The translations under genes and the position numbers were made by a program. Shown piece after piece: positions 10,486 to 28,654 of a DNA stretch of 28,654 bases. How positions within the stretch are numbered: the first letter of the stretch is position 1; the number at the start of each line of letters is the position of its first letter. Source of the stretch: a virus. The stretch is from the IMG/VR virus record IMGVR_UViG_3300020411_000765, positions 1-28,654 of that record; one strand, 5' to 3'. The notes below the pieces were generated by a model that worked only from the letters and a program-made list of their open reading frames with translations, did no database searches and was not told the DNA's origin.

Positions 10486-10525
10486 TGCTTTTAAGAGCTT
10501 ATGTTTGTATAGACTGAATCTGGTT

Positions 10526-10533
10526 TATTTATA
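10526..10533 (-). promoter_or_regulatory. T4-type late promoter (TATAAATA) for gp8
   Basis: A perfect TATAAATA octamer lies on the minus strand in the 56-bp gap between the gp7-like stop and the gp8 start. This is the late promoter consensus of T4-like phages, recognised by the phage late sigma factor gp55 with the gp45 clamp. No -35 element is needed or seen. It is expected to drive gp8, the DUF4815-type gene and the fibre gene. Confidence 0.8.
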
Positions 10534-10541
10534 CGTATTTA

Positions 10542-18998: not shown

Positions 18999-19000
18999 CC

Positions 19001-20809: not shown

Positions 20810-21201
20810 TATCTCGTCCTACTTAAGAACAGTTCTACAGCAATTGGTGGATCATCTGAACCTACTATTTCATACGTCAGTTCAACTTCAAATCCGTTTT
20901 GATCATAGTTTGGACTTGTATCTATTGATATAACAGTAATTCTTGGTTCAAATTCAGTTAAGGTGTTTTGAATACTGGATGACACCTGACCTGCTGTAGC
21001 ATAATCTAATGGTTCAAACAAATAACTTCTTATATTAGATCCATAATCAGGATTAAAAGGTCTTTCTCCTTTATTGGTCAACAATAAATTTACAATTGAC
21101 TGCTTAATAGCAGAAGCATCCCTACTAACAACTAAGTCATTAGTAACAGGATGCTTCTTAAAAGTAATATTAATGTCCTTGAAGGACAACGTGGCCGCCA
21201 T
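20809..21201 (-). CDS. gp25: baseplate wedge subunit gp25 (lysozyme-like fold family)
   Basis: The length of 130 aa matches T4 gp25 (132 aa). The signature 'GERPFNPDYGSNIRSYLFEP' near residues 45-64 and the 'EFEPRITV' segment near residue 90 are diagnostic of the gp25/TssE family; the EPR triplet is the conserved core that contacts gp6 in contractile systems. It caps the wedge core and helps start sheath assembly. The start is ATG at 21201, shortly after the SET-domain gene ends. Its stop overlaps the gp6 start (TAATG), so the two wedge proteins are made together. Confidence 0.92.
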   Translation of the reverse strand: MAATLSFKDINITFKKHPVTNDLVVSRDASAIKQSIVNLLLTNKGERPFNPDYGSNIRSYLFEPLDYATAGQVSSSIQNTLTEFEPRITVISIDTSPNYDQNGFEVELTYEIVGSDDPPIAVELFLSRTR

Positions 21202-21231
21202 CTACCGACAAATATACGAAGTCAATCTTAT

Positions 21232-21516
21232 TTAGACAGTATAAAACGTATATTTAAGCGTAAGCTCTTCTCCAACGTGTATTTGCTTTAAAGTTTTGAC
21301 GAAATACTTATCCTCTTCTTGCCATTTCACGCAATTAGGGTCGTCACTATGATTAATGAACCCTCCCAAGGGAGTCCTATAGATGACCTCATCAACGATA
21401 AGGTGAGACATACCTAAAACCATCCCCACTGGTATCTCCTCACGTGCAAAGATGCCCTGCCCTGCTATAGGAGAGTCTTTAATATGGAGCCACGAATGCA
21501 ATGCTTGATATGTCAT
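21232..21516 (-). CDS. compact SET-domain protein, probable lysine methyltransferase
   Basis: This 94-aa protein is almost nothing but a SET fold. Visible motifs, in the order expected for the family, are 'IAGQGIFAREEI' at residues 17-28 (AdoMet-binding GxG), 'GFINHSDDPNC' at 52-62 (the NHSxxPN core) and 'GEELTLKYTFY' at 82-92 (motif with the catalytic Tyr region). There is no pre-SET or Cys-rich post-SET region. The small size resembles viral vSET of Paramecium bursaria chlorella virus (119 aa), which methylates histone H3. It sits inside the late baseplate operon, upstream of gp25, so it is expected to be made late. Its substrate is unknown; a virion protein or a basic phage or host protein are possibilities. 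Methyltransferase activity is inferred from the motifs. Confidence 0.8.
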   Translation of the reverse strand: MTYQALHSWLHIKDSPIAGQGIFAREEIPVGMVLGMSHLIVDEVIYRTPLGGFINHSDDPNCVKWQEEDKYFVKTLKQIHVGEELTLKYTFYTV

Positions 21517-21552
21517 GATCTTTCGGAGATTTTCGGCGTTCGGAGCACCGCC

Positions 21553-21690
21553 CTATTTTCCCTGTCCTCTATAACGCTTCCTAGCATGATTCCTAGAAGA
21601 CGCAGAAAGCTTCGTATTCTGCGAATTACCCTGACGAGTCTTCTTAGGTTTAGCAGGTACGTGCAAACTAGAATTATTATATAAAGCCAT
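21553..21690 (-). CDS. small basic conserved cyanophage protein (45 aa)
   Basis: The reading frame encodes MALYNNSSLHVPAKPKKTRQ, then a Ser/Asn-rich middle and 'RNHARKRYRGQGK' at the end. It is strongly basic (Lys/Arg) with no obvious hydrophobic core, so nucleic-acid contact or assembly on an acidic partner is plausible. I recognise similar 'MALYNNS..HVPAKPKKTRQGN' peptides in T4-like cyanophages, always without a known function. The start is 3 bp after the stop of the PAAR-like gene and the end is 36 bp before the SET-domain gene, so it belongs to the late operon. Function unknown. Confidence 0.75.
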   Translation of the reverse strand: MALYNNSSLHVPAKPKKTRQGNSQNTKLSASSRNHARKRYRGQGK

Positions 21691-21693
21691 AAA

Positions 21694-22056
21694 TTAAGGA
21701 TTCTGTATGTTTATTGTAGTATAATTATACGGTCCTGTCAAGGGTCTGTTAGTACCAGGAAATTGTGCTAAATCCCCCGAAACAGCGGGTAACTTTCCAT
21801 TGATAAAAACAGTCGTATTCACGCTAGGAACTATGGTACGTATCCCAGGTTGACACGGTAATGGTACAACAGGATTAATCTTCACCCCATCAACATTATC
21901 TACCTGAGAAGTACTGTCATAATACTCTACCTGTTCATTCTCAAAGTAGACATTAGGAGAAGTATGTGGAGAACCACCTAATGCTTTAGCAGGATACAAA
22001 CAATTACCATCTGTACTTGATGTATCCAAACAATCGCTAGATGCTATATTAGGCAT
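21694..22056 (-). CDS. PAAR-like / gp5.4-like tail-tip protein (tentative)
   Basis: This 120-aa protein is rich in Pro, Asn, Thr and Gly. The C-terminal half contains 'TTVFINGKLPAVSGDLAQ' and 'GTNRPLTGPYNYTT', which resemble the repeated beta turns of PAAR-like proteins that sharpen the tip of contractile tails (T4 gp5.4). Two Cys lie in the first 20 residues and a third lies mid-protein, but a clear metal-binding His/Cys set is not evident. ATG at 22056 has GGAGA eight bases upstream and lies inside the last codons of the 72-aa gene (8-bp overlap), so translation is coupled. The position among baseplate genes supports a tail role. The PAAR assignment is a resemblance, not a firm family match. 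Confidence 0.5.
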   Translation of the reverse strand: MPNIASSDCLDTSSTDGNCLYPAKALGGSPHTSPNVYFENEQVEYYDSTSQVDNVDGVKINPVVPLPCQPGIRTIVPSVNTTVFINGKLPAVSGDLAQFPGTNRPLTGPYNYTTINIQNP

Positions 22057-22267
22057 TACGTTTTATCTCCAACAAACACTCTACTGAATTATGTAGATAG
22101 TTTAGTGTCTCCACTATACTCTCATGTTTCTGTGACTTCGGTGGACGGTACATCAACTGCGGTTGCTCTAGCGAGGATATCGTCCTCTCCAACTTCGTCA
22201 ACCTCTCGGACAACTTCTGGAGTGACTCGTTCAACTCGGTTATCTGTAAGTGGTGCTGTTGAGTCAT
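22049..22267 (-). CDS. 72-aa coiled-coil protein, overlapping gene
   Basis: The protein begins MTQQHHLQITELNESLQKLS and continues with heptad-like Leu spacing ('ERLTKLERTISSLEQ'), then a short basic linker and a second helix ending 'SVECLLEIKRNA'. A good ribosome site, AGGGG, lies six bases before ATG. The first 146 bp overlap the end of the 85-aa gene in a different frame, and the last 8 bp overlap the start of the PAAR-like gene. The strong ribosome site and coherent coiled coil favour a real gene. It could be a small tail chaperone or hub accessory; no family was recognised. Confidence 0.6.
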   Translation of the reverse strand: MTQQHHLQITELNESLQKLSERLTKLERTISSLEQPQLMYRPPKSQKHESIVETLNYLHNSVECLLEIKRNA

Positions 22268-22379
22268 TATCTACCCCTGAAAATCTCTTAGCAGCAGCAA
22301 ATTCAAACTCATCACAAAACTGTTCAAAGTTATTAAGTACTTTCTCATAGTAATTCTCATCTATTGGTAAGTCTCTCAT
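22122..22379 (-). CDS. 85-aa acidic hypothetical protein
   Basis: The N-terminal half ('DLPIDENYYEKVLNNFEQFC', then 'DEFEFAAAKRF') looks like a folded helical domain. The C-terminal half is acidic, Val/Thr/Glu-rich and probably disordered. It starts at an ATGA overlap with the stop of the 162-aa gene, typical of coupled phage genes. The region coding its C-terminal half is also read in another frame by the 72-aa gene, so its composition there may reflect constraint from that frame. No family was recognised. It is likely a late tail-assembly or accessory protein by position only. Confidence 0.6.
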   Translation of the reverse strand: MRDLPIDENYYEKVLNNFEQFCDEFEFAAAKRFSGVDNDSTAPLTDNRVERVTPEVVREVDEVGEDDILARATAVDVPSTEVTET

Positions 22380-22864
22380 GTTCTGTTCTGGTGTGCTACT
22401 ACTTCTGGATAGTCTGCCATAGGATTGTTAGGATCAGGTCCATGTGCTGCATCATGTTCTGCCTCATGCTGCATAATCTTTGCTTCAATTGAGATAACTC
22501 TTGAACATAATTCTTCTAACATGTTAGCAATCTTATTCAGTTGATGCTCATGTGTTGCAATGGCATATGCAGGATCTGCCATCATTTGTGAGTGTGCTTC
22601 CTCTGCTGCATCTGATACTGGCATCTCGGATGGAGGCATTGACTCTACGAGGTTATCTACTGCTGCTGCATATTCTCCAGGTGCTGTTGCAGTGTTTGGG
22701 TCATACCCTGGAATTGCACTGGGCGTTTCTGGAATTAGTCCAGGGGTTTGAGTTACCTCAGTACCTGGAACGGCGTTTCCAGTAGTTTCTGTATTCTCAG
22801 TCATGTTCTCTATAATATTTGGAATATCTTTTGCGGTATATTTTACCTCGTCTTTTTCGGGCAT
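22376..22864 (-). CDS. 162-aa Pro/Thr-rich protein with coiled coil, first gene of late operon
   Basis: The start at 22864 is supported by AGG seven bases upstream; an internal ATG at 22804 is an alternative. Residues 20-90 are rich in Pro, Thr, Ala and Glu ('TETTGNAVPGTEVTQTPG') and probably unstructured. Residues 100-140 ('HEHQLNKIANMLEELCSRVI', then 'SIEAKIMQHEAEHDAAH') form a likely coiled coil with several His. It is the first gene after the TATAAATA promoter at 22923-22930 and its stop overlaps the next start (ATGA). No known family was recognised; a structural or assembly role is inferred from the operon. Confidence 0.68.
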   Translation of the reverse strand: MPEKDEVKYTAKDIPNIIENMTENTETTGNAVPGTEVTQTPGLIPETPSAIPGYDPNTATAPGEYAAAVDNLVESMPPSEMPVSDAAEEAHSQMMADPAYAIATHEHQLNKIANMLEELCSRVISIEAKIMQHEAEHDAAHGPDPNNPMADYPEVVAHQNRT

Positions 22865-22922
22865 TTTTTACCTGGAAAATTTTTTCTAAATTCTAGCATA
22901 CAAATTATGAATTTGCAAATAC

Positions 22923-22930
22923 TATTTATA
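22923..22930 (-). promoter_or_regulatory. T4-type late promoter (TATAAATA) for the baseplate operon
   Basis: A perfect TATAAATA on the minus strand, 59 bp upstream of the 162-aa gene. No other exact octamer was seen in the gaps between here and gp8, so this one promoter probably serves the genes down to the gp7-like protein, about 12 kb. The AT-rich leader carries a small inverted repeat at 22901-22915 (CAAATT-ATG-AATTTG). Confidence 0.82.
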
Positions 22931-23004
22931 GGTCGTTGGGATACTTTTGTAGACTTTTGAATGGATAGGAGTCCCACTCGGCGCACCCCCACGCACCGCA
23001 CCCA
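22931..23004. other. GC-rich gap between late and accessory blocks
   Basis: No gene. Plus-strand bases 22978-23003 are an unusual C-rich run with repeated CGCAC/GCACC units in an otherwise AT-rich window. It lies between the terminator of the accessory block and the late promoter. No function can be assigned. Confidence 0.4.
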
Positions 23005-23005
23005 C

Positions 23006-23033
23006 AAAAAAACCCTGTCATTTCGGACAGGGT
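23006..23033 (-). terminator. intrinsic terminator after the GIY-YIG-like gene
   Basis: Minus-strand stem ACCCTGTC/GACAGGGT (8 bp, perfect, 6-nt loop at 23020-23025) is followed by a T-run of seven. It begins 14 bp after the stop at 23047 and separates the accessory block from the late operon. Confidence 0.88.
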
Positions 23034-23046
23034 GTTGTGCGATTGT

Positions 23047-23721
23047 TCAATCTGTGATAGAGTGACATCCTTCTGGGGCAAATCGGGTCAAGTGCCGATA
23101 CGACCAAGCGAATCTCAACGCTTTTTCTTCAATCGGTCTTCCCTGTCTTCCAGAGATGTCAACACGTGGCAGTCCCTCAGAATCGTATTCAAATTTCACA
23201 GGATCATTTGCGTGTGATTGTCCGATCCATCCATCTGCCCACACTTCAGGAAAACCGCATGATAGTTTTTCTTTTGCTTGCTCAATGAATTTGTCAAGCA
23301 TGGCACGGCGGATAACGAACCACTCGCCGCCACCTTCTTGCAGTTGATAAAATTTCTTGTATCGGTCAGGCACCTTGAAGTCCTTACCGTGAATTGTTGA
23401 GTAACCAGAATCACCGATCACCCTATGGAAAAATGCCTCAGCATATCCAACTCTGTTGACTGGAAGCAGTCGGATAAATTTCAAGTCTCCATCGTTTGAG
23501 GTTTGGTGATTGCACAAAACCTTATATGCCTCTGCCTCGCCACCTGATGCAAGACCGATTTTAACAGCAATCCAATCTGTGTCATCTGATGTAATGGCAT
23601 TGGCAAGACAGACCATGAAATAAATCACACCAGGAATTTGGGGTTGCTTGCCAACTTGCTTTCCTGATTTGCGTTCGGTGGCGAAGGTGTGATTCTTTGG
23701 AAGTGGTTTAAATCCTTTCAT
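23047..23721 (-). CDS. T5orf172/MUG113-like GIY-YIG nuclease-superfamily protein
   Basis: In this 224-aa protein, residues 30-140 show the T5orf172 pattern: 'GVIYFMV' at 31-37 (GIY strand), 'AVKIGLASGG' at 52-61 (YIG-equivalent), 'AEAFFHRVIG' at 94-103 (Glu/His helix) and 'GGEWFVI' at 131-137, the family's closing GEWF. Such proteins are relatives of GIY-YIG endonucleases found in phages and mobile DNA; their substrate is usually unknown. The C-terminal 85 residues are specific to this protein. The gene looks less AT-rich than its neighbours and has terminator hairpins on both sides, suggesting an inserted cargo gene. No own promoter is obvious, so expression may need read-through of 23740-23771. 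The start codon lacks a clear ribosome site. Confidence 0.62.
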   Translation of the reverse strand: MKGFKPLPKNHTFATERKSGKQVGKQPQIPGVIYFMVCLANAITSDDTDWIAVKIGLASGGEAEAYKVLCNHQTSNDGDLKFIRLLPVNRVGYAEAFFHRVIGDSGYSTIHGKDFKVPDRYKKFYQLQEGGGEWFVIRRAMLDKFIEQAKEKLSCGFPEVWADGWIGQSHANDPVKFEYDSEGLPRVDISGRQGRPIEEKALRFAWSYRHLTRFAPEGCHSITD

Positions 23722-23739
23722 AGTTTTGAGTGATGACAG

Positions 23740-23771
23740 AAAAAAAGCGATAGGCGGTTAATGCCTGTCGC
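23740..23771 (-). terminator. terminator or attenuator between the 55-aa and GIY-YIG-like genes
   Basis: Minus-strand stem GCGACAGGC/GCCTATCGC (9 bp with one G-U, 7-nt loop) is followed by seven T. The hairpin overlaps the last codons and stop of the 55-aa gene. Since the next gene shows no promoter of its own, partial read-through is likely. Confidence 0.8.
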
Positions 23772-23925
23772 TGATGTACCAAGTCCCACCCGTGGGAACT
23801 TCAAGCATTTCAAAATTGCGTTTTGCCATTGCGTCAAGGGCAGCACGTACAACTGGATCTTTTGAAGCGGTCTCGTTCATTAAGACCTGTCCGTTGTAGA
23901 ATGATTTGAGTTCTTTGTTGTTCAT
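23758..23925 (-). CDS. 55-aa hypothetical protein
   Basis: The frame reads MNNKELKSFYNGQVLMNETA, then 'SKDPVVRAALDAMAKRNFEM' and ends 'PTGGTWYISDRH'. It looks like a small alpha/beta protein without Cys or membrane segments. It follows a clear TATAAT 6 bp upstream of the ATG, so the transcript may be leaderless or nearly so. Its last codons lie in the hairpin of the terminator. No family was recognised. Confidence 0.62.
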   Translation of the reverse strand: MNNKELKSFYNGQVLMNETASKDPVVRAALDAMAKRNFEMLEVPTGGTWYISDRH

Positions 23926-23931
23926 GGTATT

Positions 23932-23937
23932 ATTATA
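23932..23937 (-). promoter_or_regulatory. -10 element TATAAT for the 55-aa gene
   Basis: TATAAT on the minus strand, 5 bp after the T-run of the preceding terminator. The hairpin occupies the place of a -35 element. The palindromic box at 23967-23989 is centred 41.5 bp upstream. Confidence 0.65.
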
Positions 23938-23942
23938 ACCAT

Positions 23943-23962
23943 AAAAAACCCCCTTGCGGGGG
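23943..23962 (-). terminator. intrinsic terminator after the 47-aa gene
   Basis: Minus-strand CCCCC-GCAA-GGGGG followed by TTTTTT. It lies 8 bp after the stop of the 47-aa gene and abuts the next -10 element. Confidence 0.85.
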
Positions 23963-23966
23963 AAGT

Positions 23967-23989
23967 GTGTTCACTTTGCAGACTGGCAC
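23967..23989. repeat. palindromic early box 1
   Basis: Plus-strand GTGTTCACTTTGCAGACTGG, a divergent copy of the recurrent element with core ACTT-TGCA-GACT centred at 23978.5. It contains the TGA stop of the 47-aa gene and lies 41.5 bp from the -10 at 23932-23937. Confidence 0.6.
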
Positions 23990-24114
23990 AGTGTCGGGTC
24001 AATTTGACAGATCTGTGCGTTACGCTGGTTCGTGACCTCTTTCATGCTTTTGATAGCAGTGTCACCTAGGACAAAACCGCATGAGATGACCAACAAAATT
24101 AGAACGTATCTCAT
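23971..24114 (-). CDS. 47-aa peptide with N-terminal signal or membrane segment
   Basis: The sequence begins MRYVLILLVISCGFVLGDTA: a positive N-terminus and about 14 hydrophobic residues, then a polar tail ending 'QICQIDPTLCQSAK' with two Cys. This fits an exported or membrane-anchored peptide; the Cys at residue 12 lies within the hydrophobic stretch and is not in an ideal lipobox. The start overlaps the stop of the 44-aa gene (ATGA). It is last in a unit with the DUF3574-like and 44-aa genes. The TGA stop lies inside palindromic box 1. A role at the host envelope is possible but not shown. Confidence 0.6.
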   Translation of the reverse strand: MRYVLILLVISCGFVLGDTAIKSMKEVTNQRNAQICQIDPTLCQSAK

Positions 24115-24245
24115 TTTGCTAGTTCGCACCTAATGCCTGCACCTTGATAGAATGCCAACATCTCAAGTGCTTTCGCCACGGTTGAAAATGAAATTGTTCT
24201 TGCGTGGCGTTGGTCGTCTTGTGACCAATAACGGATTGAAGTCAT
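24111..24245 (-). CDS. 44-aa hypothetical protein
   Basis: The frame reads MTSIRYWSQDDQRHARTISF, then 'STVAKALEMLAFYQGAGIRC' and ELAK, a strand-helix-strand pattern typical of tiny phage proteins. The start directly follows the TAA of the DUF3574-like gene (TAAATG) and the stop overlaps the 47-aa gene (ATGA), so all three are translationally coupled. No family was recognised. Confidence 0.62.
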   Translation of the reverse strand: MTSIRYWSQDDQRHARTISFSTVAKALEMLAFYQGAGIRCELAK

Positions 24246-24551
24246 TTAGATAAAAATGGCGTTGGTTTGAACTTGGGAGACAAGAACAGAGTCTTGTCTG
24301 AATTGTTTCCTGTATGCTGCTGCAATACAGTTGAAAGTCAAGAGATGGTCTTCAACTTCAGAGTCTTCAACCTCAAGATAGAAAATCTTGGTTTGCTCTC
24401 GCTTTCCTTTCCATAGACCCTCACCATCTATGAAAGTGCCGTACTCAAAATGGGGCATGATCTCACGTCTGATAAAATCATCCATCATGTGATCGGTGAC
24501 TGTCCCGTTGTCTGGAATGTCCCTCCCCATTGTCAATTCAAGTCGTTGCAT
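24246..24551 (-). CDS. DUF3574-like protein (101 aa)
   Basis: From the internal ATG the protein reads MQRLELTMGRDIPDNGTVTD, then 'HFEYGTFIDGEGLWKGK' and 'AAAYRKQFRQDSVLVSQV'. These match the DUF3574 pattern: an early 'GR', a middle 'FP.G.T..DG.G.W', and a closing 'Y..RF.QDSVL'. I choose 24551 because the family pattern begins there and a -10 (TATACT) plus a palindromic box lie just upstream. A longer frame from ATG 24647 would add 32 residues with a membrane-like segment ('LSLPMLFTLGFLLYYVC'), but it would overlap the previous gene and cover the promoter. Biochemical role unknown. Confidence 0.62.
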   Translation of the reverse strand: MQRLELTMGRDIPDNGTVTDHMMDDFIRREIMPHFEYGTFIDGEGLWKGKREQTKIFYLEVEDSEVEDHLLTFNCIAAAYRKQFRQDSVLVSQVQTNAIFI

Positions 24552-24574
24552 AAAATTCGTTTGAGTACATACGT

Positions 24575-24580
24575 AGTATA
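24575..24580 (-). promoter_or_regulatory. -10 element TATACT for the DUF3574-like gene
   Basis: Minus-strand GCTATACTACG directly after a six-T run. No -35 and no strong hairpin (only a weak stem) lie upstream. The palindromic box at 24611-24629 is centred 41.5 bp upstream of the hexamer. Confidence 0.55.
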
Positions 24581-24610
24581 GCAAAAAACCGAGGGTGAAA
24601 AGCATGGGGA

Positions 24611-24629
24611 GTGACAGTTTGTTTATTGG
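24611..24629. repeat. palindromic early box 2
   Basis: Plus-strand GTGACAGTTTGTTTATTGG: the left arm (ACAGTTTGT) is conserved and the right arm is degraded. It contains the TAA stop of the 61-aa gene. Centre 24621.5, 41.5 bp from the -10 hexamer. Confidence 0.5.
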
Positions 24630-24808
24630 AACAATGGACGCATCCAATCTTTGAATGCTTCACGTTTGAAGTCTGCAAGGTGTCGCATCTCTGCTTCATT
24701 CAATAAGAGGTCTAATCCTTCGCCTCTCATTTCATCATAACACGCTTGAGAAATCCCACTGTTTGTGAGATCGTATTTGTGCAATTGCACGTGCTTGAAA
24801 AATGACAT
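24623..24808 (-). CDS. 61-aa hypothetical protein
   Basis: From ATG 24808 the protein reads MSFFKHVQLHKYDLTNSGIS, then 'QACYDEMRGEGLDLLLNEAE' and ends 'AFKDWMRPLFQ'. It is helix-rich with a Leu/Glu/Met amphipathic segment. A TTG nine bases upstream (24817) overlaps the preceding stop (TTGA) and could be used instead, adding MNF; neither start has a clear ribosome site. It is third in a unit of small acidic proteins. No family was recognised. Confidence 0.58.
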   Translation of the reverse strand: MSFFKHVQLHKYDLTNSGISQACYDEMRGEGLDLLLNEAEMRHLADFKREAFKDWMRPLFQ

Positions 24809-24813
24809 GAAAT

Positions 24814-24972
24814 TCAACTGTAATCAAATGGACTTGGTTCGGACACCTTTTCCCAAAGTGTGTCAAATGCTTCATCCTCCTCTAGGTGTGGCGGCACACC
24901 CAAATCATGAACGAATAAAAAAAGATTGACCAAAGCAGTTTCTTCTGCTTCGGTCAATGAAAGATTTCTCAA
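24814..24972 (-). CDS. 52-aa acidic protein with probable TTG start
   Basis: The frame between two neighbouring genes has no ATG but starts with TTG at 24972, five bases after a near-perfect GGAGG, and overlaps the previous stop (TTGA). It encodes MRNLSLTEAEETALVNLFLF, then 'VHDLGVPPHLEEDEAFDTLW' and ends 'EPSPFDYS'. The tight fit between both neighbours and the strong ribosome site make the TTG start credible. The protein is acidic and helical, function unknown. Confidence 0.6.
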   Translation of the reverse strand: MRNLSLTEAEETALVNLFLFVHDLGVPPHLEEDEAFDTLWEKVSEPSPFDYS

Positions 24973-25115
24973 AGTGCCTCCTCTATTGCTGTATCAAGAG
25001 CGAGGGCGTAAAGTGCTGACTCGTCTAAGTCGGTGAGGTCAACGAAGAAAGATTTTACCCAGTCTTCAAAAATGTCCTCTGCTCGTGCTTCAACGAAATC
25101 GGTGTTGTAGGACAT
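24969..25115 (-). CDS. 48-aa acidic hypothetical protein
   Basis: The frame reads MSYNTDFVEARAEDIFEDWV, then 'KSFFVDLTDLDESALYALAL' and ends 'DTAIEEAL', a short acidic helical protein. It is the first gene of a unit starting at the -10 at 25143-25148; AAGG lies about six bases before ATG. Its last codons contain the GGAGG used by the TTG-started gene downstream. Small acidic phage proteins like this often bind host enzymes, but there is no direct evidence here. Confidence 0.62.
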   Translation of the reverse strand: MSYNTDFVEARAEDIFEDWVKSFFVDLTDLDESALYALALDTAIEEAL

Positions 25116-25142
25116 AAAAACCTTGAATTGCTTTACTCTTTA

Positions 25143-25148
25143 ATCATA
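25143..25148 (-). promoter_or_regulatory. extended -10 GTGTATGAT for the three-gene unit
   Basis: Minus-strand CGTGTATGATTAAAG, 4 bp after the T-run of the preceding terminator. It matches the recurrent GTGTATNATAG promoter core. Box 3 is centred 40.5 bp upstream. Confidence 0.62.
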
Positions 25149-25152
25149 CACG

Positions 25153-25174
25153 AAAAAACCCCCATGTGGGGGTT
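25153..25174 (-). terminator. intrinsic terminator after the 55-aa beta-alpha-beta gene
   Basis: Minus-strand AACCCCC-ACAT-GGGGGTT followed by a T-run. It lies between palindromic box 3 and the next -10. Confidence 0.88.
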
Positions 25175-25176
25175 GA

Positions 25177-25200
25177 ATGGACACTTTGTGAACTGTCTAC
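25177..25200. repeat. palindromic early box 3
   Basis: Plus-strand GGACACTTTGTGAACTGTC, core ACTT-TGTG-AACT centred at 25188.5. It starts 17 bp after the stop of the 55-aa gene at 25218 and is 40.5 bp from the -10 at 25143-25148. Confidence 0.7.
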
Positions 25201-25217
25201 GGGTCAGATGGAATTTC

Positions 25218-25385
25218 TCATAATTCCTCTACACTCTCAATAGACCATTCTGAAACGTACTCATCCTCAACGTCAAATGCGTTAATGTTTGCGTGTGCAA
25301 GTTCCCTTGCTTGCTCTTCGGTGTCTGCTTCAACTAAAATTGTGAAATAGTTCACCTCTGAGCATTCAATACGAAATTGGTTCAT
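25218..25385 (-). CDS. 55-aa small beta-alpha-beta protein
   Basis: The frame reads MNQFRIECSEVNYFTILVEA, then 'DTEEQARELAHANINAF' and ends 'SEWSIESVEEL'. A strand, a strand ending in 'VEADTEEQA' and a helix make a pattern common in small phage and plasmid proteins, loosely like the DpnD/PcfM family; I would not assign it firmly. The start overlaps the stop of the Api92-like gene (ATGA), so it is co-translated. Strongly acidic. Function unknown. Confidence 0.62.
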   Translation of the reverse strand: MNQFRIECSEVNYFTILVEADTEEQARELAHANINAFDVEDEYVSEWSIESVEEL

Positions 25386-25834
25386 TGTCCTAAGTATCCA
25401 GCGAATTGCATTCCTGGTTCATCATAAAACCACGAGACCTCAACATCAGGGTATTGCTCACGAAGTGCATAAAAAATACCCTCAGCAGGTGCCCAGGCAG
25501 TTTCAAACTCACACTCAAAACAGTTTTCCTCTAGTTGGTCACACTCTGGGTCAACATCCCACTTAGTACCCCAGTTGTTGATATTCCAGTCATACCAGCG
25601 GTCATCATGTGAACCATCTGGAAATCTTTGAACAGTTGTGAACACCTCACCGTTTGGATTTTTCATCTCAACTGTGCGTGGTAGTTCACCTTTATCATTT
25701 GGGGTGTTTTTCCAATCTGGTGACGGTAGGATCTTGTTAAAGGCGTTCTCAGAATTAAAGATCTCATAAAGTTTGTTGATGCTCTGTTCATTTTCAGAAT
25801 AGAACGAAACTCTGTTGTTGCACCAATTTGGCAT
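25382..25834 (-). CDS. Api92/YubB ferredoxin-like-domain protein (150 aa)
   Basis: The start at 25834 is set by AGGAGA five bases upstream and by the family N-terminus MPNWCNNRVSF; the frame is open further upstream but without support. The middle 'WYDWNINNWGTKWDV' (about residues 88-102) and the C-terminal 'FETAWAPAEGIFYALREQYP' followed by 'YDEPGMQFAGY' are hallmarks of the Api92-like/YubB family (DUF1281 relatives), found on plasmids and in phages, with a ferredoxin-like fold and no settled function. It is preceded by an 81-nt leader with conserved P1 stem sequences. It is followed by the overlapping 55-aa gene. Confidence 0.8.
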   Translation of the reverse strand: MPNWCNNRVSFYSENEQSINKLYEIFNSENAFNKILPSPDWKNTPNDKGELPRTVEMKNPNGEVFTTVQRFPDGSHDDRWYDWNINNWGTKWDVDPECDQLEENCFECEFETAWAPAEGIFYALREQYPDVEVSWFYDEPGMQFAGYLGQ

Positions 25835-25915
25835 AAATTCTCCTATTGTGTGTATGTGGGAGAGGTTCGCCTTAAAGAGCATTTTCCTCTGGGGTCGCTC
25901 ACCCTTGCCTCCCAC
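25835..25915 (-). promoter_or_regulatory. structured mRNA leader A upstream of the Api92-like gene
   Basis: The predicted transcript begins with GTGGGAG (25915-25909), which pairs with CTCCCAC (25862-25856), enclosing 46 nt. Inside are two possible small hairpins, GGGT/ACCC (25901-25904 with 25892-25895) and AGAG/CTCT. The ribosome site AGGAGA lies outside the closing stem. The same outer stem and nearly the same spacing recur in leader B (27141-27223). Leader or riboswitch-like function is inferred. Confidence 0.45.
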
Positions 25916-25921
25916 TTCTAT

Positions 25922-25927
25922 ATGATA
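25922..25927 (-). promoter_or_regulatory. -10 element TATCAT for the Api92-like unit
   Basis: Minus-strand GCTATCATATAGAAG, 6 bp after a T-run. The overlapping CATATA is an alternative hexamer. Box 4 is centred 42.5 bp upstream of TATCAT. Confidence 0.5.
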
Positions 25928-25932
25928 GCAAT

Positions 25933-25954
25933 AAAAAACCCCCTAGTGGGGGTT
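25933..25954 (-). terminator. intrinsic terminator after the basic-tail gene
   Basis: Minus-strand AACCCCC-ACTA-GGGGGTT followed by a T-run, nearly identical to the terminator at 25153-25174. It lies about 15 bp after the stop at 25969. Confidence 0.88.
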
Positions 25955-25958
25955 GAGT

Positions 25959-25981
25959 GTGTCAGTTCTTAAACTGTCCAC
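25959..25981. repeat. palindromic early box 4
   Basis: The minus strand reads GTGGACAGTTTAAGAACTGA, the same 18-base run as plus-strand box 6 but inverted. The core is centred at 25969.5. It includes the TAA stop of the 108-aa gene. Confidence 0.72.
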
Positions 25982-26295
25982 GCTTTGACTTGTTTTACCA
26001 ATTGAGCGTGATACGGTGTTACTAGGTCAAAACCTTTTCTCAAGTCCTTGCCTAGTTCTTGGATCTCATACTGATGGATTGCCCATCTAGTCTGAATGTC
26101 CTTGACGTAGCGATCAACTGAAATGAGATTTCTTGTTGATGGACGCTTGAGAGTGGTCACCTTAGCAACTGGTTTGCCACCTTTGAAGGTTGTGACTGTG
26201 ACCTTAGAAACTTGAGGTTTCTTCGCTGCTGCTTTTCTTGCCCTTGGTTTGCGTGTTGCTTTCTTAGGGGCAGTTGAAACAGTTGCAGTTGGCAT
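25969..26295 (-). CDS. 108-aa protein with histone-H1-like basic N-terminal tail
   Basis: Residues 1-30 ('APKKATRKPRARKAAAKKPQ') are a Lys/Arg/Ala/Pro tail of the kind found in linker histones and bacterial histone-like proteins such as AlgP or Hc1. Residues 30-55 remain basic, and 55-108 form a probable helical domain ('VDRYVKDIQTRWAIHQYEIQ', ending 'LVKQVKAWTV'). DNA or RNA binding is likely from composition; it could compact or protect phage DNA or alter host transcription. It stands alone behind a strong extended -10 (GTGTATAATAG) and ends within palindromic box 4. The 'ARK' context in the tail is notable given the SET-domain gene in this window. Confidence 0.68.
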   Translation of the reverse strand: MPTATVSTAPKKATRKPRARKAAAKKPQVSKVTVTTFKGGKPVAKVTTLKRPSTRNLISVDRYVKDIQTRWAIHQYEIQELGKDLRKGFDLVTPYHAQLVKQVKAWTV

Positions 26296-26321
26296 GAAGT
26301 GAAATTCATTTGAACTCTTCT

Positions 26322-26327
26322 ATTATA
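26322..26327 (-). promoter_or_regulatory. extended -10 GTGTATAATAG for the basic-tail gene
   Basis: A perfect TATAAT with upstream TGTG on the minus strand, 27 bp from the ATG at 26295. No -35 and no good palindromic box at the usual distance: only a half site AACTG at 26362-26366. Confidence 0.7.
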
Positions 26328-26415
26328 CACAGGCAGCGACCAGATCCAGAAAAACGTAACAAACTGAAACAATAAGAATTACAACAAAAATTCCAGCTGC
26401 CTGGCGGCAGACCAA
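26323..26415 (-). CDS. possible 30-aa membrane peptide (TTG start)
   Basis: Between the terminator of the 46-aa gene and the promoter at 26322, one frame encodes MVCRQAAGIFVVILIVSVCY then VFLDLVAACV, a single membrane-spanning helix. The only start is TTG and there is no ribosome site or separate promoter; it would be reached only by read-through of the terminator. The stop overlaps the next -10. It may be a real mini-protein or chance AT-rich hydrophobic coding. Confidence 0.22.
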   Translation of the reverse strand: MVCRQAAGIFVVILIVSVCYVFLDLVAACV

Positions 26416-26439
26416 AAAAAGAGGTGCCTATTGGCACCT
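26414..26439 (-). terminator. intrinsic terminator overlapping the end of the 46-aa gene
   Basis: Minus-strand AGGTGCC-AATA-GGCACCT followed by C and seven T. The TAG stop of the 46-aa gene lies in the loop, so the last sense codons form the stem. Confidence 0.88.
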
Positions 26440-26568
26440 GTCTTCAAATCGTTTGTAGACCATTTCATCAATCTGGTCTTGGGTCATGAAGAGGAGATCA
26501 GTTCTAAACTCTTCAAGGATTTCTAGATAGCAGTCTTCTAGAATAGACTCGTGATGGAGTGTGCTCAT
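26428..26568 (-). CDS. 46-aa acidic hypothetical protein
   Basis: The frame reads MSTLHHESILEDCYLEILEE, then 'FRTDLLFMTQDQIDEMVYKR' and ends FEDRCQ: two acidic amphipathic helices. It starts at an ATGA overlap with the 57-aa gene and its stop lies inside the terminator hairpin. Function unknown. Confidence 0.65.
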   Translation of the reverse strand: MSTLHHESILEDCYLEILEEFRTDLLFMTQDQIDEMVYKRFEDRCQ

Positions 26569-26738
26569 AGTCCGTTTAAAAACTCGTGCATCTCGTCCAT
26601 GTATTCAGCGTATGTGCCGTTGAACCAATCTGGGGCGACTCGTTCTTGGTGACGCTTGCAAGACTCGTTGATCTCACGGACGCTGTAACCCTTTTGAAGG
26701 AGTGAGGGAAAAAACTCTTGAAGGTTTGATTTATTCAT
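26565..26738 (-). CDS. 57-aa hypothetical protein
   Basis: From ATG 26738 the protein reads MNKSNLQEFFPSLLQKGYSV, then 'REINESCKRHQERVAPDWFN' and ends 'YMDEMHEFLNGL'. It is helix-rich. A GTG five codons upstream would extend it but lies within the -10 region, so ATG is preferred. The predicted transcription start falls almost on the ATG, so the mRNA may be leaderless. It is coupled to the 46-aa gene. No family was recognised. Confidence 0.62.
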   Translation of the reverse strand: MNKSNLQEFFPSLLQKGYSVREINESCKRHQERVAPDWFNGTYAEYMDEMHEFLNGL

Positions 26739-26744
26739 ACCTCT

Positions 26745-26750
26745 ATAATA
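26745..26750 (-). promoter_or_regulatory. extended -10 GTGTATTATAG for the 57-aa gene
   Basis: Minus-strand TCGTGTATTATAGAGG, 7 bp from the ATG. Box 5 is centred 41.5 bp upstream. Confidence 0.62.
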
Positions 26751-26754
26751 CACG

Positions 26755-26783
26755 AAAATGCCCCCACTTCAAGCGAAATGAGG
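26755..26783 (-). terminator. hairpin terminator after the 105-aa gene
   Basis: Minus-strand RNA CCTCATTTC-GCTT-GAAGTGGGG forms a 9-bp stem using two G-U pairs, so it is stable only as minus-sense RNA. A short T-run (TTTT) follows. Confidence 0.6.
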
Positions 26784-26804
26784 ACACCTTGTGAATTGGC
26801 ACAG
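26781..26804. repeat. palindromic early box 5
   Basis: Plus-strand GGACACCTTGTGAATTGGCA, a divergent copy with core centred at 26791.5. It lies 18 bp after the stop of the 105-aa gene. Confidence 0.58.
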
Positions 26805-26822
26805 CAACTCAGCTGAGTTTTT

Positions 26823-27140
26823 TTATTTTGTGTCAGAATGGACTGGAAACGAGAGGGACTCGCCTTCCTTGAGTGAGTAACTGTGATAATCCCGTCCCTC
26901 AATTTCTTGGTCGGGGTCAACGGGATAATTGCCGTAGATGGTTGTGACAATTTCATCATCGTCCTCCATCTCTACGACATGCTCAATTAATTCATGTTCT
27001 GTCATATTCTCATAATAGTCTATGAGAGTCTCACGACAATACTCATATAATGCCTTGGGGTCCTCTGCCAGTCTGTCTGCTACGACATCGGCATACGTCT
27101 CAACAAGGGCATCAAATTGAGAATCAATTTCTTGGGGCAT
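26823..27140 (-). CDS. 105-aa acidic hypothetical protein
   Basis: Residues 1-60 ('MPQEIDSQFDALVETYADVV', then 'DYYENMTEHELIEHVVEMED') are helical and very acidic. The C-terminal third ('NYPVDPDQEIEGRDYHSYSL', ending 'VHSDTK') looks extended. AGG nine bases before ATG is the only ribosome site. It has an 83-nt leader with a conserved outer stem shared with the Api92-like gene, suggesting that its expression is controlled at the RNA level. The net charge could suit a DNA mimic or an inhibitor of a basic partner, but no family was recognised. Confidence 0.66.
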   Translation of the reverse strand: MPQEIDSQFDALVETYADVVADRLAEDPKALYEYCRETLIDYYENMTEHELIEHVVEMEDDDEIVTTIYGNYPVDPDQEIEGRDYHSYSLKEGESLSFPVHSDTK

Positions 27141-27223
27141 GTGGAAAAACCTGTGGAAAAGTGTGGGAGTGTTGCAACCACCATGTTCAATACACGGTCA
27201 TTTAAGGTTCTTACTCCTCCCAC
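27141..27223 (-). promoter_or_regulatory. structured mRNA leader B upstream of the 105-aa gene
   Basis: The predicted transcript starts with GTGGGAG (27223-27217), pairing with CTCCCAC (27169-27163) around 47 nt. Inside is a 6-bp hairpin ACCGTG/CATGGT with a 7-nt loop (27198-27180), extended by AACC/GGTT. From the closing stem to ATG is 22 nt, against 21 nt in leader A. Confidence 0.48.
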
Positions 27224-27229
27224 TTATCT

Positions 27230-27235
27230 AATATA
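27230..27235 (-). promoter_or_regulatory. extended -10 GTGTATATTAG for the 105-aa gene
   Basis: Minus-strand TTGTGTATATTAGATAAG placed 3 bp after the six-T run of the preceding terminator. Box 6 is centred 41.5 bp upstream. Confidence 0.62.
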
Positions 27236-27238
27236 CAC

Positions 27239-27263
27239 AAAAAAGGCACCCTTTGGGGGTGCC
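27239..27263 (-). terminator. intrinsic terminator after the 43-aa gene
   Basis: Minus-strand GGCACCC-CCAAA-GGGTGCC followed by TTTTTT, a 7-bp perfect stem. Confidence 0.9.
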
Positions 27264-27264
27264 A

Positions 27265-27286
27265 GTGGACAGTTTAAGAACTGGAC
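27265..27286. repeat. palindromic early box 6
   Basis: Plus-strand GTGGACAGTTTAAGAACTGG, core AGTT-TAAG-AACT centred at 27276.5. It contains the TAA stop of the 43-aa gene. Confidence 0.75.
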
Positions 27287-27405
27287 GTATAATCCAATTC
27301 TAAAGCAACCATACTGTTAGAATGTGCTTCTATAATATTATCATCCTCCTCTGGATGATCATCGTAATACTTTAACTCTTGTTTGACATATTCTTCAAAA
27401 GTCAT
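27274..27405 (-). CDS. 43-aa acidic hypothetical protein
   Basis: The frame reads MTFEEYVKQELKYYDDHPEE, then 'DDNIIEAHSNSMVALELDYT' and SSS. ATG at 27405 has GGAGG ten bases upstream. The stop lies inside palindromic box 6. It stands alone after a long leader of up to 170 nt containing a perfect 10-bp hairpin. Function unknown. Confidence 0.62.
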   Translation of the reverse strand: MTFEEYVKQELKYYDDHPEEDDNIIEAHSNSMVALELDYTSSS

Positions 27406-27573
27406 TGTTACAAACCTCCATAGGATTAGGTAATAATAGTTATAAGAATAAATGACTATTTGTTACTATTCTTTAACTTGAGATAAAAAAGAATCGCATA
27501 AATGGGCAATTTATGCGAATTCGTAGCAGTTTTAATTAACATTAAATGATAAAATGCGATTTTTTAAAAATAT
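27406..27573 (-). promoter_or_regulatory. AT-rich leader or promoter region of the 43-aa gene
   Basis: No gene is seen in these 168 bp. A TATAAC-like -10 at 27439-27444 (minus) may start the 43-aa transcript. A perfect 10-bp inverted repeat, TCGCATAAAT-GGGCA-ATTTATGCGA, lies at 27494-27518. On the minus strand the hairpin is followed by TTC and six T, so it could act as an attenuator or end a short RNA. AATCGCAT also recurs at 27554-27561. Confidence 0.4.
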
Positions 27574-27606
27574 AAAAAAACCCAGAATTTCACTTTCTGG
27601 GTTTTA
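27574..27606 (-). terminator. strong intrinsic terminator after the 107-aa gene
   Basis: Minus-strand AAACCCAGAA...TTCTGGGTTT (10 bp) with seven T following. The plus strand also has a short T-run, so it may work in both directions. Confidence 0.9.
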
Positions 27607-27619
27607 TCAAAAAACGCAA

Positions 27620-27943
27620 TTATCGTGCTATGTGAAAACCATCAAAAAATGGTGTGTCTAGATCATCAACGTACCACTGAAAGTCTTTCTGGAAAATACT
27701 TGCGCCGTGCAAGAATGTATCAAGAATGGCATTCAATCGTGACTTGGTTGTATTAGTTTCCCAACCACAACTTGATAACCAAAGGTCACCAAATTTGTCA
27801 ACGAATGTGATACGGTTGTTGTGAAGGTAAACAGAAGTGTTGCCCTCATCGTCCTTCTCAACACGTGTGTTGGACTTACTCCAACTCTGTCCATTTGATA
27901 GGTTGCAGATAGCGTTCTGCATTTCTCTTTCAATTTTTCTCAT
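27620..27943 (-). CDS. 107-aa conserved phage protein (GWxTxTTKxRLN family)
   Basis: 'MQNAICNLSNGQSWSKSNTR' near the start, 'SVYLHNNRITFVD' in the middle, 'LSSCGWETNTTKSRLNAILD' and 'ASIFQKDFQWYV' near the end form a pattern I recognise from a hypothetical family found in very different phages. No function is known for it to my knowledge. A downstream in-frame Met at residue 8 is an alternative start; 27943 is the first ATG. It follows the 56-aa gene by 21 bp and is the end of that unit, with a strong terminator after it. No membrane segment or catalytic motif is visible. Confidence 0.72.
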   Translation of the reverse strand: MRKIEREMQNAICNLSNGQSWSKSNTRVEKDDEGNTSVYLHNNRITFVDKFGDLWLSSCGWETNTTKSRLNAILDTFLHGASIFQKDFQWYVDDLDTPFFDGFHIAR

Positions 27944-27964
27944 GATGTTTGGTAAATAGGGTGT

Positions 27965-28135
27965 TCAGTTAAGGGGAGCAGTTTCAGCAGTTAAGGCACC
28001 TTCAATATTGCCTAGTAAGGTCCAAAGGTTAGAACACTCGTCATCATCCTGGATGAATGGATTGTCCAACGCTCTGTTGAGTGCCTCAGCATATGCTGTT
28101 GCTTCCTCTACTGTGAACTCAAGATTTACTGTCAT
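27965..28135 (-). CDS. 56-aa hypothetical protein
   Basis: From ATG 28135 the protein reads MTVNLEFTVEEATAYAEALN, then 'RALDNPFIQDDDECSNLWTL' and ends 'GALTAETAPLN'. It is an acidic helical protein. The frame is open for 41 more codons upstream, but that extension runs through a -10 element and palindromic box 7, so the shorter start is preferred. No ribosome site is evident. It is co-transcribed with the 107-aa gene. Function unknown. Confidence 0.64.
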   Translation of the reverse strand: MTVNLEFTVEEATAYAEALNRALDNPFIQDDDECSNLWTLLGNIEGALTAETAPLN

Positions 28136-28160
28136 TTGGGACTTGATTGGGTGGACATGC

Positions 28161-28238
28161 TTAATTATAAGCGAGATCAGCAACAATGGGGAGAAAAGTG
28201 GACAGTTTGTGAACTGGTTCAACTGATCTCGTTTCCAT
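28161..28238 (-). CDS. possible 25-aa peptide
   Basis: A short frame beginning METRSVEPVHKLSTF and ending IVADLAYN starts 18 bp after the -10 at 28257-28262. It has no ribosome site, and box 7 and the next -10 lie inside it. It may be only a leader region. Confidence 0.15.
   Translation of the reverse strand: METRSVEPVHKLSTFLPIVADLAYN
28164..28169 (-). promoter_or_regulatory. -10 element TATAAT for the 56-aa gene
   Basis: Minus-strand GCTTATAATTAAG, 29 bp from the ATG at 28135. No terminator hairpin lies between it and box 7, yet the box centre is still 40.5 bp upstream. Confidence 0.6.
28198..28220. repeat. palindromic early box 7
   Basis: Plus-strand GTGGACAGTTTGTGAACTGG, the cleanest match to the consensus, core AGTT-TGTG-AACT centred at 28209.5. 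Confidence 0.75.
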
Positions 28239-28256
28239 CGTTGCGTGACCAATATC

Positions 28257-28262
28257 ATTATA
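28257..28262 (-). promoter_or_regulatory. -10 element TATAAT after the 50-aa gene terminator
   Basis: Minus-strand ATTATATAATGAT just after the T-run of the terminator. Box 8 is centred 61.5 bp upstream, about two helical turns further than in the other seven cases. Confidence 0.5.
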
Positions 28263-28265
28263 TAA

Positions 28266-28292
28266 TAAAAAGCACCCCGTTAAGGGTGCTTT
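28266..28292 (-). terminator. intrinsic terminator after the 50-aa gene
   Basis: Minus-strand AAGCACCC-TTAACG-GGGTGCTT, an 8-bp stem, followed by T-rich sequence running into the next -10. Confidence 0.85.
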
Positions 28293-28312
28293 GTAATAAT
28301 CTGAAACAAAAA

Positions 28313-28333
28313 GGTCCAGTTTAATAACTGTCC
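28313..28333. repeat. palindromic early box 8
   Basis: Plus-strand GGTCCAGTTTAATAACTGTC, core AGTT-TAAT-AACT centred at 28323.5; the minus strand carries the GGACAGTT arm. It contains the TAA stop of the 50-aa gene. Confidence 0.68.
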
Positions 28334-28473
28334 TCCTCCCACTTCTCATACTCCTTGAATTTTGCTACCTTCTTTTTCTTACCTTTCTTTACTCCTTTGA
28401 TCTTGTATTCATAAGTTGCAACATTATCAGCATATTCATCGGAATATGTGTTAATATTATGAGATTTACCCAT
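28321..28473 (-). CDS. 50-aa Lys-rich hypothetical protein
   Basis: The frame reads MGKSHNINTYSDEYADNVAT, then 'YEYKIKGVKKGKKKKVAKFK' and ends 'EYEKWEEDSY'. The centre is a Lys cluster flanked by acidic ends. The stop lies in palindromic box 8, and the last codons carry the same AAGTGGGAGGAG 12-mer as leader B. The start is 31 bp after the stop of the partial gene at the right edge. Function unknown; nucleic-acid binding is possible from the charge. Confidence 0.62.
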   Translation of the reverse strand: MGKSHNINTYSDEYADNVATYEYKIKGVKKGKKKKVAKFKEYEKWEEDSY

Positions 28474-28504
28474 TTGTATTAGATAGTGGCGAAACTACAG
28501 ATAT

Positions 28505-28654
28505 TTATTTGTCAGTTAGTACACCATCTTTGCGAGATTGTGATACAAATGACCCGACACTTCCACCATCTTGTTGTAACTCATTACTGATAAGTACAGA
28601 ACACAAGTTATTAGTGAATTCTGGTACATTTTCACAATTATATGCATATTCTTT
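28505..28654 (-). CDS. hypothetical protein, C-terminal 49 residues only
   Basis: The frame is open to the right edge and ends 'LISNELQQDGGSVGSFVSQS' plus RKDGVLTDK. The start is outside the window. The visible part is polar and helical, with two Cys in its first 20 visible residues, and shows no family motif. A half site of the palindromic box (GTCAGTT) lies at 28511-28517 close to its stop. Confidence 0.55.
   Translation of the reverse strand, partial: KEYAYNCENVPEFTNNLCSVLISNELQQDGGSVGSFVSQSRKDGVLTDK

Follow-up and report, generated by a model that had tools for sequence, protein, structure and literature searches.

The window analysed here is one IMG/VR virus record, IMGVR_UViG_3300020411_000765, taken at its full length of 28,654 bases, and it carries a recurrent palindromic box that lies at a nearly constant distance upstream of -10 promoter elements. 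That the box and its spaced -10 are real in the window is confirmed, and the same arrangement was found in T4-like cyanophages of Synechococcus or Prochlorococcus. The explanation that we favour, and hold to be reasonably likely, is that the box serves as operator to a sequence-specific protein dimer, which would activate early promoters without a -35 element from a centre near -53. Activation, the early timing of the genes and the binding of a protein are the parts of this explanation that we infer, and 5′ ends are throughout predicted rather than mapped.

A box and a -10 element at fixed spacing

Eight boxes had been placed by a first-pass annotation of the window, and all of them were confirmed at their positions. 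They lie between small minus-strand genes, and the promoter that goes with each is on the minus strand as well. Their parts are as follows (ORF, open reading frame; the distance of the -10 is counted in bp from the box centre).

23969-23988, minus strand: box 1 (dyad), centre 23978/23979, matrix score 14.0, -10 at 41; contains the stop codon of frame 23971-24129
23948-23966, minus strand: terminator-like hairpin separating box 1 from its -10
23932-23937, minus strand: -10 of box 1, TATAAT; ORF 23758-23925 downstream
24612-24631, minus strand: box 2, centre 24621/24622, matrix score 11.4, -10 at 41; contains the stop codon of frame 24623-24817
24575-24580, minus strand: -10 of box 2, TATACT; ORF 24246-24551 downstream
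25179-25198, minus strand: box 3, centre 25188/25189, matrix score 23.3, -10 at 40
25157-25174, minus strand: terminator-like hairpin separating box 3 from its -10
25143-25148, minus strand: -10 of box 3, TATGAT; ORF 24969-25115 downstream
25960-25979, minus strand: box 4, centre 25969/25970, matrix score 26.6, -10 at 42; contains the stop codon of frame 25969-26295
25937-25954, minus strand: terminator-like hairpin separating box 4 from its -10
25922-25927, minus strand: -10 of box 4, TATCAT; frame 25382-25915 downstream
26782-26801, minus strand: box 5, degenerate, centre 26791/26792, matrix score 12.1, -10 at 41
26755-26790: terminator-like stem overlapping box 5
26745-26750, minus strand: -10 of box 5, TATTAT; ORF 26565-26738 downstream
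27267-27286, minus strand: box 6, centre 27276/27277, matrix score 21.5, -10 at 41; contains the stop codon of frame 27274-27405
27245-27263, minus strand: terminator-like hairpin separating box 6 from its -10
27230-27235, minus strand: -10 of box 6, TATATT
28200-28219, minus strand: box 7, centre 28209/28210, matrix score 24.6, -10 at 40; no terminator-like hairpin before the -10
28164-28169, minus strand: -10 of box 7, TATAAT; ORF 27965-28135 downstream
28314-28333, minus strand: box 8, spacing outlier, centre 28323/28324, matrix score 22.4; contains the stop codon of frame 28321-28473
28269-28292, minus strand: terminator-like hairpin separating box 8 from its candidate -10
28257-28262, minus strand: candidate -10 for box 8, TATAAT, 61 bp from the centre

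From centre to hexamer the spacings are 41, 41, 40, 42, 41, 41, 40 and 61 bp, which reproduces the earlier values minus half a base of convention. Box 8 had already been singled out as the outlier, at 61 bp and with a hairpin in between, and the statement that the spacing also holds without an intervening hairpin agrees with box 7, for which none is listed. The stop codon of the upstream frame falls inside five of the eight boxes (1, 2, 4, 6 and 8). On the plus strand, box 6 has a second -10-like hexamer at 41 (score 6.1) and box 3 a weaker one at the same distance (score 4.4). A 25-codon frame (METRSVEPVHKLSTFLPIVADLAYN, 28161-28238) lies 3′ of box 8, crosses box 7 and reaches the -10 of the next promoter.

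The core first proposed for the palindrome, AGTT-N4-AACT, is part of a real dyad but is not enriched in the window when taken alone (26 occurrences with at most one mismatch vs. 26.2 expected). The palindrome itself stood, while its consensus had to be replaced by a longer and more symmetric dyad, TGTGnCAGTT-N4-AACTGnCACA or GGACAGTT-N4-AACTGTCC. Four exact copies of CAGTT-N4-AACTG were counted in the window vs. none of the reversed control. A matrix of 26 columns, built from 134 sites of other viral contigs that were required to have a -10 at 40 or 41, returned ten boxes in the window (score at least 9), with eight in the last 5.2 kb and seven having a -10 at 39-42; the two further boxes, at about 2453 and 16745, are inside large open frames and have no -10. 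When the window was shuffled 200 times within 100-bp blocks, a procedure that does not preserve dinucleotides, each shuffle gave at most one pair of box and -10. Because of these matrix and shuffle tests, we conclude that it is the longer dyad with its spacing, and not the short core, that exceeds chance.

Distribution among viral contigs and isolated phages

A scan of IMG/VR with CAGTTNNNNAACTGTCCA matched at least 120 stretches. Duplicates of the same downstream stretch, the window-derived loci (L001-L004) and sites too near a locus end were set aside before counting. Among the matches listed, 109 distinct CAGTTNNNNAACTGTCCA sites were chosen with the -10 ignored, and a TATAAT-like hexamer was found 40-41 bp from the centre on one side in 44 cases and on the other in 19, vs. 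0-6 hexamers at any other single distance. At least one box promoter was present in 76 of the 120 listed loci, and 74 of these 76 have protein relatives in at least two of seven isolated cyanophages; among the listed loci with the exact motif and no box promoter, 8 of 44 do.

These seven T4-like isolates (Syn9, P-HM2, P-TIM40, S-PM2, S-H9-1, S-RIM2 and P-SSM2), six of which are filed as Kyanoviridae and one, P-HM2, without a family, contributed nothing to the matrix, and the training contigs gave no match to any phage genome compared at 95% over 1 kb. With no spacing required, 98 boxes of score 12 or more were found in them, and 67 have a -10 at 39-42. Over distances of 15-119 bp the hexamers numbered 3, 11, 43 and 16 at 39, 40, 41 and 42, and 0-3 at every other distance.

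The comparison was extended to 18 phage genomes, with a pair defined as a box and a -10 at 39-42 and the mean of 20 shuffles, again within 100-bp blocks, as control. Counts are of pairs, so that a box with hexamers on both sides counts twice, and boxes spanning the borders of the 20-kb pieces are missed.

Syn9: 3 pairs, shuffled mean 0.1
P-HM2: 12 pairs, shuffled mean 0.15
P-TIM40: 15 pairs, shuffled mean 0.1
S-PM2: 14 pairs, shuffled mean 0.15
S-H9-1: 9 pairs, shuffled mean 0.15
S-RIM2: 5 pairs, shuffled mean 0.05
P-SSM2: 20 pairs, shuffled mean 0.25
S-CRM01 (freshwater): 13 pairs, shuffled mean 0.2
S-TIM5: 5 pairs, shuffled mean 0.1

All eight T4-like cyanophages of Synechococcus or Prochlorococcus thus have 3-20 pairs. 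No pair was found in T4, Melnitz (OM43 host), Ma-LMM01, the podoviruses P-SSP7, Syn5 and P60 or the siphoviruses PSS2 and S-CBS4, and HTVC008M (SAR11 host) has one, which is near chance (shuffled mean 0.2, maximum 1). Both HTVC008M and Melnitz are classified in the Kyanoviridae, and their genomes carry relatives of the gp6, gp8 and gp25 of the window. S-TIM5 gave no match to window gp6, gp8 or gp25, the T4 baseplate genes tested, in agreement with its being a myovirus of another lineage. From the distribution of pairs over the 18 genomes, the element tracks picocyanobacterial hosts across two myovirus lineages, and five podo- or siphophages on such hosts are without it. Checked for randomness over these genomes, the spacing claim of the first-pass annotation stood.

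Structure of the box promoters

We aligned 344 box promoters (267 from contigs and 77 from isolates) on the -10. Each arm of the dyad has an inner half-site, AACTG, 3-7 bp from the centre and an outer CACA at 9-12 bp, and the four central bases are free. The TATAAT hexamer is strong in this alignment by selection; in the held-out genomes it is present with a peak at 41 bp from the box centre. Between box and hexamer the aligned promoters show little information and no -35 hexamer: TTGACA at 16-18 bp did not appear, and no position from -29 to -6, counted from the first base of the hexamer, exceeds 0.25 bit. An A followed by a T is preferred 12-13 bases downstream of the first hexamer base, the expected place of +1, which puts the box centre near -53; the earlier proposal of this position with strict phasing is supported for the predicted 5′ ends. 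The start codon follows at a median of 31 bases past the hexamer start, in the 320 of 344 promoters with one within 160 bases.

In 216 of the 344, an open frame on the same strand and at least 60 codons long has its end in the interval from -60 to +40 around the box centre, and in 125 of these the end lies between -15 and +4. Judging from these frame ends and the positions of the hairpins, a gene end, sometimes a terminator, and the next promoter are packed into about 60 bp.

T and G are interchangeable at position 8 of each arm, and the two bases (-8/+8) could pair in 155 of 344 promoters vs. 151.8 expected if independent (Fisher p 0.64); pairing at positions 9-12 is likewise what independent half-sites predict. 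The preference at position 8 varies modestly between phages (p 0.018, mainly P-SSM2). Since the half-sites vary independently, we take the box to be a DNA site and not an RNA hairpin, with each half-site apparently recognised separately, as the two subunits of a dimer would do. The inner half-sites are centred 9 bp from each other, about one helical turn, and the outer TGTG/CACA blocks 20 bp, about two turns, which would place the contacts on about one face of the DNA.

A possible mechanism and the points against it

Our preferred explanation would work as follows. The box would be a two-fold symmetric, double-stranded DNA operator bound by a dimeric sequence-specific protein and, centred near -53, would serve early-gene promoters that have a good -10 (TATAAT) and lack a -35. 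The bound protein would most likely help the host RNA polymerase in place of the -35 contacts, by touching either the alpha C-terminal domain or sigma. A broader formulation, to which we give somewhat less than even chances, is a dedicated class of cyanomyovirus early promoters in which the -53 dyad replaces the -35, a single conserved factor serves them all (from the host, with very few targets on the chromosome, or from the phage and carried in the virion), and the class follows the host.

Several observations weigh against the preferred explanation. No -10 at 39-42 accompanies 31 of the 98 isolate boxes, and Syn9 has only three strict pairs, with degenerate cores (two weaker sites are at 47215 and 48569). 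The one-mismatch 14-mer core is at, below or near its reversed control in Syn9 (10 vs. 12), P-TIM40 (11 vs. 16) and S-RIM2 (16 vs. 15); it exceeds the control in P-HM2 (19 vs. 3), P-SSM2 (15 vs. 6) and S-H9-1 (18 vs. 7). The core motif revealed no host regulon: among 151 genomes belonging to the family of Synechococcus WH7803, a core box paired with a -10 occurs in 1 genome vs. 4 control hits, and the dyad GNCAGTTNNNNAACTGNC at 12 sites vs. 21 for the control. No DNA-binding-looking phage protein co-distributes with the box (tblastn at E 1e-3, S-TIM5 frames of at least 45 codons). A sigma-70-like motif before homologues of early T4 genes is reported for S-PM2 and Syn9, and was not found in S-RSM4, in the portion consulted of a 2010 review (PMC2984593). 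A site at -53 could, moreover, equally serve a repressor. The short core, being at chance level in the window, was not kept as a test, and the one-mismatch 14-mer detects the box poorly, giving no information in several isolates.

Candidates for the binding protein

A relaxed form of the outer-arm dyad gave 19 sites in 15 of the 151 host genomes vs. 2 control sites, and this enrichment is the main opening for a host factor. Eleven of the 19 sites (ten loci) were scored; none has a -10 at 39-42, and the best score is 0.3; the sites described next are among them. In one cyanobacterial genome (L363), two TGTGnCA-N10-TGnCACA dyads, at 2976-2999 and 4248-4271, flank a gene pair that by eye resembles an excisionase-type helix-turn-helix antitoxin and a PIN-domain toxin, and the upstream dyad recurs exactly in two more genomes. 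In two others (L353 and L354, both at 1501-1524) an outer-arm dyad with differing inner sequences stands just behind a gene taken for psbN, where it is perhaps a terminator.

On the phage side, the only S-TIM5 frame present in all nine positive and none of nine negative genomes looks like a glutaredoxin. Photosynthesis-type genes of S-TIM5 also match the box-negative P-SSP7. The families phrog_507 and phrog_495 initially occurred in all 8 positives and in none of the 6 negatives, and were rejected because S-CRM01 has the box and, by tblastn, neither gene; an AlphaFold model of phrog_507 (mean pLDDT 73.5) gave no PDB match at E 0.001 or below. A host protein with few chromosomal targets fits, because the specificity is nearly constant across unrelated phages and the factor would be needed immediately. 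The alternative is a protein of the virion or phage that has diverged beyond recognition.

Gene content of the window and genes behind the boxes

The protein matches identify the window as part of the genome of a T4-like cyanophage. For the baseplate proteins they are to PHROG baseplate families and, in tblastn, to Synechococcus phages at identities of up to about 54% and 59%; megablast of positions 10000-28654 against the phage collection gave no match. From 23.5 kb to the end of the window the open frames are short and mostly on the minus strand, and 21 terminator-like hairpins were counted at 20-28.65 kb vs. 6.3 expected. Those products of genes after the boxes that were scanned fall into PHROG families of unknown function, a Kyanoviridae family or domains of unknown function, or have no match. 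The ORF at 24246-24551, after box 2, resembles by eye a first gene after a box promoter in P-HM2. The 108-residue protein of frame 25969-26295 resembles Pfam HC2 (histone-H1-like nucleoprotein) at a sub-threshold E of 0.0012, below the cut-off.

In the isolates the listed box promoters are concentrated at 44-69 kb in P-SSM2 (16 of 20), 45-55 kb in P-TIM40 (10 of 15), 33-40 kb in P-HM2 (8 of 11) and 2-19 kb in S-PM2 (8 of 14), and these box-rich regions are small-ORF regions where annotated. A box promoter lies directly 5′ of an annotated peptidase gene in P-HM2 and at the start of the same gene in S-PM2, where the annotated start codon precedes the predicted -10. This peptidase, a family resembling CobS by eye and a helicase (so annotated in Syn9) are among the commonest clusters of first genes. 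Of the five S-TIM5 pairs, one (at 17332) may have arisen by chance; the other four fall within 165-171 kb and precede an anti-restriction gene, a gene for polynucleotide kinase and two genes of unknown function. From these annotations and the small-gene clusters, the box genes look early rather than middle.

The S-PM2 'ORFanage' (ORF 017-050), whose extent we estimate at about 5-17 kb, seems to contain the box promoters at 5087, 8584, 9864, 11358 and 16520. The part of PMC4503421 consulted describes the loss of the ORFanage on passage and stem-loops at 11369 and 16829. The first of these stem-loops adjoins the box at 11358.

Alternative explanations

An operator that shuts early genes off is the strongest of the alternatives, though we think it unlikely. 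An early-made phage repressor would sit at -53 and exclude the alpha subunit or loop between neighbouring boxes; a fixed site beside early-type promoters suits repression as well as activation, and the boxes are often clustered (eight in 4.4 kb of the window; 44-69 kb in P-SSM2). Yet the promoters, having no -35, look in need of help, -53 is upstream of the usual positions of repressors, and no phage protein of DNA-binding appearance tracks the box.

Considerably less probable is a mobile promoter-terminator cassette of which the box would be a homology tract, conserved by gene shuffling and not by the binding of a protein. The PeSL cassettes (Arbiol 2010 and Comeau 2014, via the part of PMC4503421 consulted) also pack a promoter and a stem-loop amid small variable genes. 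A terminator-like hairpin separates box and -10 in 80 of the 344 promoters vs. 6 of 344 in the shuffled stretch and in five of the eight in the window, where one more overlaps box 5, and the boxes occupy variable small-ORF regions, including the S-PM2 region whose deletion the same part of PMC4503421 describes. However, the stem-loop terminator joined to an early promoter that marks PeSL is absent from 264 of the 344, and the constant part here is an added upstream dyad. Little information is shared from the box to the -10, so the cassettes are not simply copied, and recombination alone would hardly preserve two-fold symmetry or a phasing of 39-42 bp across genera. The authors of PMC4503421, in the part consulted, judged PeSL unlikely for their own region. 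A mobile cassette explains the hairpins but not the dyad.

That the box works in RNA, as a hairpin for termination or processing at the 3′ end of the upstream gene, we regard as very improbable. The box does often overlap the end of an upstream frame, as in five of eight cases in the window, and for boxes 4, 7 and 8 a fold at the dyad is possible. Against this, box 6 folds into a different hairpin, Rfam has no match at 20000-28654 of the window, the phasing of the -10 is left unexplained, and the pairs at positions 8-12 are about as frequent as independent half-sites predict; on this absence of covariation the reading was ruled out. Chance or a compositional artefact, suggested by the short core being at chance level in the window and its one-mismatch form likewise in Syn9, P-TIM40 and S-RIM2, is excluded for practical purposes by the matrix and spacing tests and the held-out genomes.

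Relation to known systems

The first-pass annotation had read the box as a candidate signal of a phage regulon that might stand in for the MotA/AsiA middle-gene switch. A phage signal acting at the DNA level is supported; the replacement of a middle switch is not, and the genes look early rather than middle. T4 MotA middle promoters resemble the box promoters in combining an activator site with a -10 in the absence of a -35. The MotA box is placed near -30 and is unlike this dyad in sequence. No MotA-type block near -30 is conserved in the 344 promoters, and the motA and asiA genes themselves were not searched for here. In the consulted portion of the review cited above (PMC2984593), cyanomyoviruses are said to have no alt, modA, modB, motA or asi, and their mechanism of early and middle transcription is called unclear.

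Activator promoters of Class I and II (CRP type) also have a dimer dyad upstream of the -10; their sites are centred at -41.5 or -61.5, unlike the centre near -53 found here, and CRP, NtcA, Pho and LexA boxes have other half-sites. At two other loci (L018 at 4421, 5847 and 6261; L023 at 1566, 1893 and 2324), TTGACA-type promoters are immediately preceded by near-perfect palindromes, AGTGGACACTTTCTAAACTGTCCACT among them; in the one case counted, the -10 is some 46 bp away from the palindrome centre. The former locus has no protein relatives in the phage set and the latter only P-SSP7, and these palindromes may be a related operator in another promoter architecture.

Doron et al. in 2016 reportedly described a novel element that controls early genes in Syn9 and P-TIM40 and is conserved across T4-like cyanophages. 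Our box is probably this element; both phages have the box with its -10 (3 and 15 pairs). In the portions of the openly licensed literature consulted no description of this motif was found, and a phage MarR paper (PMC9692554) and a psbA motif paper (PMC5931967), as far as their consulted parts go, describe other things.

Significance

The signal is probably a known element, seen here in a new phage. Its constant dyad at -53 can serve as bait for the missing protein, and it offers a way of predicting early genes in cyanophages that have not been cultured. Should the factor come from the host, the cyanomyoviruses that infect picocyanobacteria would share a dependency on it.

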